A DNA stretch of 24,361 nt from a virus. Of this stretch, positions 1 to 2,452 are shown in pieces. The stretch covers positions 1 through 24,361 of the IMG/VR virus record IMGVR_UViG_3300013100_000194, one strand, 5' to 3'. The position numbers and the translations under genes are program-made. Below the pieces are notes generated by a model. It was not told where the DNA came from, ran no database searches, and saw only the letters and a list, made by a program, of their open reading frames with translations. Position 1 is the stretch's first letter, and the number at the start of each line of letters is the position of its first letter.

Positions 1-154
1 CCATCTTACGTGTTTCCCAGCTACTTAAATCCTTAGTAACTGAACAGACACCAGTTGAATGCTCTCCACGAATTACATCTAGCTTAGAAAGAAGCTTAAA
101 TACTTCCTCTTCTTTATTGTAGATTTTACCTACACAGCCAACGATTCCACACAT
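1..154 (-). CDS. Class II glutamine amidotransferase, N-terminal part (runs off left edge)
   Basis: The first 51 residues of a minus-strand gene are visible; the rest lies beyond base 1. The protein starts MCGIVGCVGK, the hallmark of the Ntn-type (class II) glutaminase domain. After removal of Met1, Cys2 is the nucleophile that releases ammonia from glutamine. The segment RGEHSTGVC at about residues 29-37 fits the conserved RG.(D/H)S.G region of the same fold. The start at 154 has an AGGA eight bases upstream. It is the last gene seen in the leftward operon, 56 bases after the 139-aa gene. Class II domains feed ammonia to a synthetase partner (asparagine synthase, GlmS, PurF, Gat-QueC or amidoligase neighbours). 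Which one applies cannot be told without the missing C-terminus. The family call is firm and the substrate is unknown. Confidence 0.9.
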   Translation of the reverse strand, partial: MCGIVGCVGKIYNKEEEVFKLLSKLDVIRGEHSTGVCSVTKDLSSWETRKM

Positions 155-210
155 GATAGATTCCTAAAATAATTTTCTGAAGTTAATTCACATATTCAGC
201 ATTGTATTAC

Positions 211-630
211 TTACCAATGTTTATCTTCTCTCTTGGTTGCAGCCTTAATGCCATTATTTTTCTGATTGACATATGTATCCTTTTCTGGATCATATTGTTC
301 ATTAAATCGTTTCTCATCCCATTCAGTAAGAGGCATGAACATAACACTCATTCTGTGATTCTTAGTATAGGGACTTACACCACCACCAGCATCACCATCT
401 GGATGCATATAAAAACCAACCTCTTCAAATGCTGCTATAGCATTAGGTTGAGTGGTAGTTAAAATGGCTACAACAGTTGCACGAGATCTCTTTGATGCTG
501 TCAGATTTTTACACAACCATTTAATACATTCTTGCTTAGTGAAATCTTCTGTCTCATCAATATGGCCACCACCAAAACCACTATATATAAAAGCAGAACA
601 ACAATCTGGAAAACCATTTATTCTTGGCAT
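211..630 (-). CDS. Hypothetical phage protein, 139 aa
   Basis: The start at 630 lies five bases after the stop of the class I amidotransferase gene and has an AAGGGTG Shine-Dalgarno that overlaps that stop, so translation is probably coupled. I do not recognise the family. The N-terminal third has a glycine-rich stretch (YSGFGGGHIDETEDF, about 16-30). The middle, about residues 50-75, reads ILTTTQPNAIAAFEEVGF. This vaguely resembles the C-terminal strand-helix of GNAT acetyltransferases (N..A...YEK.GF), but no acetyl-CoA loop is clear. The C-terminal tail is charged and lysine-rich and ends in KREDKHW. The position between two glutamine amidotransferase genes suggests a role in the same pathway, by inference only. 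Confidence 0.85.
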   Translation of the reverse strand: MPRINGFPDCCSAFIYSGFGGGHIDETEDFTKQECIKWLCKNLTASKRSRATVVAILTTTQPNAIAAFEEVGFYMHPDGDAGGGVSPYTKNHRMSVMFMPLTEWDEKRFNEQYDPEKDTYVNQKNNGIKAATKREDKHW

Positions 631-634
631 AATA

Positions 635-1210
635 TCACACCCTTAATCCTAGACAACGATCAAGCAATTCAAAGTAATAATCTGTACACTCTTTATATCC
701 AGTGAATTCTGGATGGGGTTGGAAACATAAAACTTTTTCTGTGGTATAGTGGATCACTTCGGTAATATCGTCTGGACTTTTATCCAGAATTGCATCAGGG
801 TCAGCAGATACCATTGCTTGGTGATGTGTAGATGTTACATTGGTAGTAGGTGTATCCTCATGTACATCTTCCATAAATACTAGTGGATGAGTGCCATGGA
901 TAGCATGTCCTTCAACATGTTGAATCATAGACCCACCACACATAACATTAAGGAACTGCCCACCACGACAAATGCCAGCCATAGGCTTATCCATCCTTTG
1001 TGCTATGGCAAAGTAGCCAGCTTCCCTTAAATCCCTATCAAAATTGTTATAACTGTTAGTGTTTTCTTCTCCATAAATAATTGGAGTTACATCTTCACCA
1101 CCAGTAAATTGTACTAGATCAGCATCAAAAATACTACCAATAACTTCCCAACCATGCTTTATAAACATTTGGGCATAAGCTGTACCACCGCCTACAATAA
1201 ATACCTTCAC
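635..1210 (-). CDS. Class I glutamine amidotransferase / gamma-glutamyl hydrolase (peptidase C26, PuuD-like)
   Basis: A 191-aa single-domain enzyme of the class I GATase fold. Visible motifs in order are FTGGEDVTP (35-43), the nucleophile elbow GICRGGQ with Cys81, the STHHQAM segment (127-133) typical of the PuuD/C26 gamma-Glu-X hydrolases, and QPHPEF with His166 and Glu168 completing the Cys-His-Glu triad. The family hydrolyses gamma-glutamyl amide bonds or supplies ammonia. The FTGGEDV and HHQ signature favours a free-standing gamma-glutamyl peptidase rather than a synthetase subunit. It begins with GTG inside the stop of the upstream 297-aa gene (GTGA overlap), with AAGGAG eight bases upstream. 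Lying beside a GGCT-like gene and a class II GATase, it probably acts on a gamma-glutamyl-linked metabolite or tag. Confidence 0.9.
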   Translation of the reverse strand: MKVFIVGGGTAYAQMFIKHGWEVIGSIFDADLVQFTGGEDVTPIIYGEENTNSYNNFDRDLREAGYFAIAQRMDKPMAGICRGGQFLNVMCGGSMIQHVEGHAIHGTHPLVFMEDVHEDTPTTNVTSTHHQAMVSADPDAILDKSPDDITEVIHYTTEKVLCFQPHPEFTGYKECTDYYFELLDRCLGLRV

Positions 1211-2100
1211 TTAATATGCTCCTTATAGAACAAGTCATTAAGCTTAACAGCTTCCTTAATCATATCTTTCAGAGGTAGATTAATAACCATCTTAGCTTTA
1301 GTTGAAGTCTCCCAAGGTTGGGTATAAATCTTTTCTTCAACAGTCTTATCACTATTTTTGACTAACCAGTTGATAAACTTGTTACCCTCTGAAGATACTG
1401 ATCGTCTCCGAATTAATGGGTTATCAGCCATAAATAGTTGATGAACACCTGTATATGGATATTCATTATTAAAATTTTTCTTGAAAGCTCCCACAGGATT
1501 ATGCTTAATATAATTTATAGCATCTTCTACTAATGCTGAACAGACAGGCCAAACAGCATGTCCACCATCATACATGCCAGTGTTAATCTTCTTTCCATCT
1601 TCTGATAGATAGCAACAGAAGAGCCAAGCAAAATCCTTAGTACAACCAGCATCTACCAGCTTCTTAAAATGATAGATGCCTTGTATTGAATAAGATTCCC
1701 ACATCTCTCTAACAGCAGATAATCCAGCAATAACCATATTGCCCGGCATTTCAATCTTATGGTAAGTAATGCCATTATTAACAGACCATTTAGCATCATG
1801 CTCAATAAAACATTCAGCGAATGGACTTTCATTCATAAGATAATCTAAGAAAAATACTCTATCTTCTTCTGTAAGAGCAATATATCTATGTAATCCAATC
1901 TGAAAATTATTAATGATGTATTCAGAAGTGTTAGTAATTAAGGTAGCTAAACCACCATAGCACATTTGATGTGCTCTTCCATAAGCTCCTTTAGCCTGTC
2001 TAACCATACAACCAGTGGATTGTCTAAAGGAATAATTATTGGTGGTGAATTCACCATATGCATAAGTCCTAGCTTTAATATCTTCTTCATGATTAACCAT
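1207..2100 (-). CDS. Unrecognised 297-aa protein in the gamma-glutamyl operon
   Basis: The start chosen at 2100 (MVNHEED) overlaps the end of the GGCT gene by eight bases (ATGGTTAA) and has GAGGA at good spacing. An in-frame ATG at 2136 would give 309 aa but has no clear ribosome site and overlaps more. I do not recognise the fold. The protein is soluble and rich in aromatic residues, His and Cys: GCMVRQAKGAYGRAHQM near the N-terminus, a Cys pair FCCYL near the middle, and GMYDGGHAVWPVC after it. The C-terminus is helical and lysine-rich. No Walker, ATP-grasp or amidoligase GIE(I/L)E motif is visible. Translational coupling to GGCT upstream and to the class I GATase downstream makes it a likely pathway partner. 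It could be the ligase or acceptor-handling subunit, but that is speculation. Confidence 0.85.
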   Translation of the reverse strand: MVNHEEDIKARTYAYGEFTTNNYSFRQSTGCMVRQAKGAYGRAHQMCYGGLATLITNTSEYIINNFQIGLHRYIALTEEDRVFFLDYLMNESPFAECFIEHDAKWSVNNGITYHKIEMPGNMVIAGLSAVREMWESYSIQGIYHFKKLVDAGCTKDFAWLFCCYLSEDGKKINTGMYDGGHAVWPVCSALVEDAINYIKHNPVGAFKKNFNNEYPYTGVHQLFMADNPLIRRRSVSSEGNKFINWLVKNSDKTVEEKIYTQPWETSTKAKMVINLPLKDMIKEAVKLNDLFYKEHIK

Positions 2101-2452
2101 GTGTCCATTCCTCAATGGGTTGTCGGCCTTCAACATTACCTTGATAAATATAAATCCATGCTTCTACAAGCTCCTCATTCTTATCTAAAGCAACAAAAAT
2201 TTGCTTCCGCTTGTAGAAATTAGGGTGCCCTTCTAGACGATCACATCTGTCAAAAGCAACATCATCTACTTCCCAAACTTCTCCGAGAATATGATTATCT
2301 CCTAGGACTACACCGGGAAAGCCACCTAGAGTATACATTTGAAAATCTGGAGAGGTTATAGCCGTATCAACAAATTTCTGGTCATGGATAATAGCGTTAT
2401 TACCCCAACCACGCTTAAGTGTGCCATATACAAAGATTAGATGTTTAGCCAT
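2093..2452 (-). CDS. Gamma-glutamylcyclotransferase-like (GGCT/AIG2) protein
   Basis: A 119-aa protein of the BtrG/AIG2/GGCT fold, about the usual length. The family signature FVYGTLKRG.GNN is at residues 7-19. The second conserved block DRLEGHPNFYKR (71-82) carries Glu74, the catalytic acid of this family. These enzymes cleave gamma-glutamyl amides to release 5-oxoproline, or remove gamma-glutamyl protecting groups (BtrG in butirosin synthesis). The start at 2452 (MAKHLIFVYG) overlaps the end of the 43-aa gene by eight bases (ATGGCTAA), the same overlap geometry seen at its own 3' end with the 297-aa gene. A longer in-frame start at 2572 is rejected because the added residues do not belong to the family. 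Confidence 0.92.
   Translation of the reverse strand: MAKHLIFVYGTLKRGWGNNAIIHDQKFVDTAITSPDFQMYTLGGFPGVVLGDNHILGEVWEVDDVAFDRCDRLEGHPNFYKRKQIFVALDKNEELVEAWIYIYQGNVEGRQPIEEWTHG

Follow-up and report, generated by a model that had tools for sequence, protein, structure and literature searches.

Phages of many Gram-negative bacteria keep about seven amide-forming enzymes close to a primase gene, a set whose function has for years been a matter of published conjecture. Passages of the published descriptions give the module, known from many podoviruses, the label "peptidoglycan modification" cassette (PMC5498523, PMC11945000; gene table in PMC3890496), and the amidoligase module of phiEco32 and LUZ24 is credited to Iyer et al. 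2009, as cited in passages of PMC10580990 and PMC11318856. The functions proposed in the corresponding passages of PMC5498523, PMC11945000 and PMC10580990 are peptidoglycan (side-chain) modification and the prevention of superinfection, and a passage of PMC11318856 states receptor modification by the phiEco32 amidoligase as fact, citing the computational Iyer paper. Here we analyzed the IMG/VR virus record IMGVR_UViG_3300013100_000194, the whole of which (24,361 bases) forms the window under study, the record ending at the window edges. Five open reading frames (ORFs) on the minus strand, all within the first 2,452 bases and read leftwards, make this window a further member of the cassette that earlier papers predict to be a peptidoglycan-modification module (the phiEco32/RIO-1/PA11 type). 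Judged from gene content and order, they are almost certainly the upstream end of such a phage amidoligase cassette, with the ligase genes cut off at base 1. The five features are as follows, L012, L015 and L019 being related loci.

2093..2452, minus strand: GGCT/AIG2-like gamma-glutamyl(amine) cyclotransferase (GGCT), 119 aa, catalytic Glu74; PF06094, E 3.4e-25
1207..2100, minus strand: H309 family protein, 297 aa, frame open to 2136 (309 aa); core cassette family
635..1210, minus strand: class I glutamine amidotransferase (GATase) / gamma-glutamyl hydrolase (Peptidase_C26, PuuD-like), 191 aa, GTG start; PF07722, E 9.9e-21
211..630, minus strand: H139 family protein, accessory, 139 aa; same place in L012, L015 and L019
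2..154, minus strand: class II GATase N-terminus, 51 codons, MCGIVG start, gene cut by the contig edge

An earlier note on this DNA had placed GGCT, class I and class II GATase genes side by side with two further ORFs, and all five were confirmed, as were the residues that it named: VYGTLKRG and Glu74 in GGCT, Cys81/His166/Glu168 in the class I GATase and MCGIVG in the class II protein. It also had both unrecognized proteins coupled to their neighbors by overlaps, which holds for the 297-aa gene (8 nt shared with GGCT, 4 nt with the class I GATase) and fails for the 139-aa gene, which overlaps neither neighbor and is flanked by gaps of 4 nt on one side and 56 nt on the other. The phage origin that it assumed is borne out by the large terminase, head-tail adaptor, major head protein and tail appendage genes on the plus strand.

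Relatives that continue past base 1

The closest relative found, L012 (IMGVR_UViG_3300021168_000009), has the gene order GGCT-H309-GATI-H139-GATII-COOH-NH2 ligase-H185-Amidoligase_2-ATP-grasp-primase, where GATI and GATII are the class I and class II GATases and H185 is a hypothetical protein of about 185 aa. Identity between the window and L012 is 90% for the class II fragment (51 residues), 70% for GGCT, about 60% for GATI, 60% for H139 and 47% for H309. The GGCT-H309-GATI-H139-GATII order, with its unusual H139 insertion, is common to L012, L015 and L019 and is followed in each by the COOH-NH2 ligase and Amidoligase_2; the ATP-grasp gene is reached in L012 and L015, and L019 stops within Amidoligase_2. 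Because these three loci keep the same genes in the same order and continue into the ligases, the window is best read as the truncated upstream end of the cassette, and the ligase that the earlier note suspected to the left of base 1 is strongly supported and very probably there. Pfam matches in L012 comprise PF14395 (COOH-NH2 ligase, E 1e-9), PF12224 (Amidoligase_2, E 5.1e-8), PF08443 (RimK-like ATP-grasp, E 1.1e-5) and PF13522 for the class II GATase, and its ligase genes match PHROG ligase families with E below 1e-85. The more general idea of an amidoligase system in a phage is supported as well.

The described systems differ in how much of this arrangement they share. The RIO-1 / PSA-HP1 cassette, as given in passages of PMC5498523 and by Hardies et al. 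2013 as cited there, holds GGCT, class II GATase, COOH-NH2 ligase, Amidoligase_2 and ATP-grasp genes beside the primase, and RIO-1 gp7 is a relative of H309, a likeness to the window; in contrast, the C26 class I GATase profile finds nothing in RIO-1, and the ligase half is missing from the window's record. Profiles for the COOH-NH2 ligase, H185, Amidoligase_2, class II GATase, ATP-grasp and GGCT find matches in phiEco32, LUZ24 and RIO-1, whereas phiEco32 and LUZ24 again differ from the window in giving no C26 class I GATase match. The cassettes of PA11, TC6, HHBS10_2, GP100, CVT22, KpnP_VR7901 and CW02, several of them labelled Zobellviridae in their records, follow the order H309-GATI-GATII-COOH-NH2-H185-Amidoligase_2-ATP-grasp; those read have no GGCT at the upstream end, CW02 carrying its GGCT after the ATP-grasp gene, and class I GATase identity is 36-54% across a ten-sequence alignment. 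The window has the cassette-type class II GATase, GGCT and the H309-GATI pair, a feature of the PA11-like branch. Since RIO-1, phiEco32 and LUZ24 all go unmatched by the C26 class I GATase profile, the window is a member of the PA11-like branch with a GGCT added.

Composition of the cassette and its proteins

Ten class I GATases were aligned and used to fetch IMG/VR loci, of which the best 80 of 176 confirmed were taken; ORFs were called on all of them and labelled with iterated hidden Markov models built on annotated phages (E 1e-3). Class I GATase is present in 80/80 loci by construction, class II GATase in 80, the COOH-NH2 ligase and H185 in 78 each, Amidoligase_2 in 77, H309 in 76, ATP-grasp in 73, primase in 70, GGCT in 23 and H139 in 5, and several of the missing members fall in loci that contig ends cut. 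The commonest order, seen in 21 loci, is H309-GATI-GATII-COOH-NH2-H185-Amidoligase_2-ATP-grasp-primase, and in 10 loci (L044, L045, L054, L057, L073, L075, L081, L084, L085, L086) the cassette holds two ATP-grasp genes, of which one separates GATI from GATII and the other stands at the cassette end. As the class I GATase was the sole query behind these 80 loci and the same set and order recur in them, a chance side-by-side placement is excluded. In two loci, L071 and L074, the cassette goes on after the ATP-grasp gene with another class II GATase-like ORF, of 372 aa, and with a GGCT-like ORF of larger size (274 aa).

Single window proteins searched against viral contigs gave no relatives, PADLOC returned no match for any of 9 proteins and NCBIfam none above its curated cut-off. 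The cassette looks phage-specific in this sample, because bacterial genome contigs searched with the COOH-NH2 ligase yielded 12 loci only, all on contigs of metagenome-assembled genomes (MAGs).

The recognizable enzymes keep their catalytic residues. GGCT starts at the ATG at 2452, within a frame open to 2572; its Glu74 (column E114 of the longer frame) is kept in 24/24 sequences, and its nearest solved chains are YtfP (1xhs) and AIG2-like domain-containing protein 1. The class I GATase has its Cys81, His166, Glu168 triad in 81/81 sequences, within GICRGGQ and QPHPE motifs; it matches phrog_7218 (E 3.3e-52), has the PDB relatives 3fij and 6vtv PuuD, and is recognizable in phages PA11, TC6, HHBS10_2, GP100 and CVT22. 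The class II fragment in the window carries the Cys2 nucleophile and RGxxSTG, matches two class II families of PHROG (E 2e-11 and 5e-11, respectively) and, being 90% identical over its 51 residues to the full-length L012 protein (493 aa), is a cassette-type class II GATase. A complete asparagine synthase or another unrelated housekeeping enzyme would, by the earlier note, have spoken against this reading; the complete L012 homologue shows no asparagine-synthase or SIS domain in Pfam, such as asparagine synthase B or GFAT would carry at the C-terminus, its only matches being GATase_6/7/4 within residues 65-189, and the window copy covers 51 residues. Toward the C-terminal end of this family, four Cys are conserved in 75-77 of 81 sequences, in a motif that looks like a zinc ribbon.

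H309, the family of the 297-aa protein, is by its presence in 76/80 loci a core cassette gene and not a bystander, with putative catalytic residues conserved. The ATG at 2100 agrees with the start of the L012 homologue. Among 70 sequences passing a 230-480 aa length filter, and numbered from the 309-aa frame, Cys59 and Arg143 are kept in 70/70, His193 in 69/70 and Glu147 in 68/70. An AlphaFold2 model from 69 sequences (predicted local distance difference test, pLDDT, 85.0; predicted template modelling score, pTM, 0.87) found no match in the PDB at E 0.001 or better, which is no evidence of a new fold. Kinship with KH domains was considered and set aside, the best VIA-align match (Z 4.2, 97 aligned, root-mean-square deviation (rmsd) 3.7) being read as a common arrangement, and so was a profile match to 8fre (E 0.00098) that spans 28 residues only. 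In BFVD, 10 models match H309 at E 0.001 or better, among them proteins of CW02, CVT22 and RIO-1, and profile comparison joins H309 to RIO-1 gp7 (hhalign probability 96, E 3e-9). For phiEco32 gp87 the same comparison gives E 0.007 and probability 5.6, against E 0.29 or more for unrelated controls, so that a relationship is only suggestive. The accessory H139 protein (139 aa) has no Pfam match and no family match. H185 has an N-terminal part predicted to be SH3/KOW/Tudor-like (model pLDDT 94.6; best structural match Z 6.7, 61 aligned, rmsd 2.5), a very common fold. With H309 and H185 as core members, and candidate catalytic residues in H309, a fuller gene list is available for deletion or reconstitution.

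Candidate pathway and target

The chemistry of the member families makes it rather probable that the cassette encodes an amide-forming, gamma-glutamyl-editing pathway. The two GATases would take ammonia from glutamine or else split gamma-glutamyl amides. With ATP as their energy source, the two glutamine-synthetase-like ligases and the RimK-like ATP-grasp enzyme would make gamma-glutamyl or side-chain amide bonds one after another. Trimming or recycling of gamma-glutamyl groups would fall to GGCT and the PuuD-like enzyme, and H309 may add a further Cys/His-dependent step. Transmembrane-like stretches occur in 0/70 H309, 0/81 GATI, 0/81 GATII and 5/75 Amidoligase_2 proteins, and because the members thus look soluble, the target is probably cytosolic. 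We tentatively regard the peptide part of peptidoglycan precursors as the likeliest target, while holding it doubtful; its alteration early in infection could protect the cell from other phages or tune lysis. Taken as a whole, a cut cassette encoding an amide pathway directed at peptidoglycan precursors is our best explanation, to which we give somewhat less than even credence. Several points weigh against it. The window itself contains no ligase gene, and L012 is one assembly, so the window beyond base 1 could differ; nothing singles out peptidoglycan, no murein gene being fixed beside the cassette, where the fixed neighbor is a DNA primase/helicase; and no experimental test of the cassette was found in the literature searched. 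The peptidoglycan proposal is neither proven nor excluded by these data, and protein, small-molecule or nucleotide products remain alternatives.

The strongest of these alternatives, which we consider unlikely though worth serious attention, is protein modification: the RimK-like and glutamine-synthetase-like ligases would attach amino acids or peptide tags to proteins of the host or the phage, and these would be taken off again or recycled by GGCT and the PuuD-like enzyme. RimK and alpha-L-glutamate ligases are the nearest relatives of the ATP-grasp member, and the solved relatives of GGCT named AIG2-like domain-containing protein 1 cleave gamma-glutamyl-lysine; the SH3/KOW-like fold of H185 is common in protein- and nucleic-acid-binding parts, and some of the cassette phages have a C-terminal tag common to many of their small proteins. 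However, the cassette has no fixed conserved substrate protein, the match to PF18299 (R2K_2) lies below its cutoff, and neither the window nor RIO-1, phiEco32 or LUZ24 has the tag, though these three phages carry cassettes.

We judge it rather unlikely that the cassette yields a diffusible small molecule or modifies nucleotides or DNA bases, with gamma-glutamyl groups serving as temporary protection. Butirosin offers a precedent in which a GGCT and an ATP-grasp ligase serve as protecting-group chemistry, the class I GATase has matches, though far under the cutoffs, to models of gamma-glutamyl-CDP-amidate hydrolase and PuuD, and the cassette adjoins the primase in 70/80 loci; but placement beside replication genes is common for early genes, and the fixed families of the 80 loci include no thymidine- or cytosine-hypermodification enzyme, no search having been aimed at such enzymes. 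It is improbable that the cassette serves to tag or cross-link phage proteins, with small proteins that bear a genome-specific C-terminal tag as the substrates of its ligases. That the genes are unrelated passengers (morons) lying side by side is hardly credible: GGCT is variable (23/80) and H139 rare (5/80), but six to seven other genes hold one order across very divergent phages with their catalytic residues kept.

C-terminal tags in some relatives and other genes of the window

In some relatives of the window, a single phage has many small proteins that are unlike one another except for a common tetra- or pentapeptide at the C-terminus. Each phage has its own peptide: LENE in CVT22, LEND in Pecta, LENK in KpnP_VR7901 and LEENx in CW02, with LED[WY][ML], KxDWL, F[KR]GN, KGNK, EELI, DxLYY and EEYLC elsewhere. 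Tag-bearing loci are L005, L036/L162 (CVT22), L006, L008/L089, L010, L021/L173, L034/L159, L065, L067, L068/L179, L069, L076/L169, L079/L168, L094, L152, L155 and L183, and some of the tagged small proteins sit between cassette genes. Tags were counted as pairs of small ORFs (130 aa or less) that resemble each other in their last five residues but not in the rest of the protein, in two cassette sets that overlap in contigs and in control sets of 120 tRNA-pattern loci and 80 T7-like-primase loci. Such pairs number 265/17,177 in the first cassette set and 230/12,848 in the second, where an internal five-residue stretch gives 1 and 1, against 5/8,219 and 2/5,909 in the respective controls. Clusters of four or more occur in 10/80 and 9/80 loci of the cassette sets and in 1/12 MAG loci, against 0/120 and 0/80 in the controls. 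Because the control loci are shorter and of other lineages than the cassette loci, the link between tags and cassette is unproven. The 31 small ORFs of the window give 0 tag pairs, RIO-1 and phiEco32 likewise none, and LUZ24 one chance-like pair.

We considered whether the tags are merely the Shine-Dalgarno sequence of the next gene. For the LENE type, a Shine-Dalgarno-like word lies inside most tag codons (13/14 in L162). In L069 the word follows the stop codon in 6/6 cases, 4 of those 6 also having it within the tag codons, and elsewhere W/Y and M/L exchange within tags. Synonymous differences at tag positions -5 to -1 were 160/256, 153/325, 127/367, 116/300 and 106/319, where 182, 208, 185, 152 and 177 were expected, that is, 60-88% of the codon-usage rate among pairs that are not independent. 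Given the L069 arrangement, these exchanges and the synonymous variation, the ribosome-site explanation is partial and not sufficient; the synonymous variation and the W/Y and L/M exchanges point to selection on the protein end. No report of such genome-specific C-terminal tags was found in the literature searched, and the tag observation may be the newer one.

Beyond the cassette, the left part of the window holds tRNA genes, a deaminase-like gene and small genes, and the right part phage structural genes. The deaminase-like gene (3207-3554, minus strand, TTG start) lies upstream of the cassette and matches PF00383 at 25.2 bits against a cut-off of 25 and the dCMP deaminase family phrog_174 at E 8e-13. 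Two tRNA genes, at 4061-4154 and 4397-4473 on the minus strand, are tRNA-Ile (anticodon TAT) and tRNA-Arg (anticodon TCT), for ATA and AGA codons. A 211-aa phrog_1448 protein is encoded at 5394-6029 (minus strand), among the few stretches of the left 6 kb still alignable as DNA, with about 65-68% identity to PA11-like Pseudomonas phages. At 7965-9833, on the plus strand, lies the gene for a 622-aa tail-fibre-like protein whose N- and C-termini match different PHROG families, as in a mosaic receptor-binding protein.

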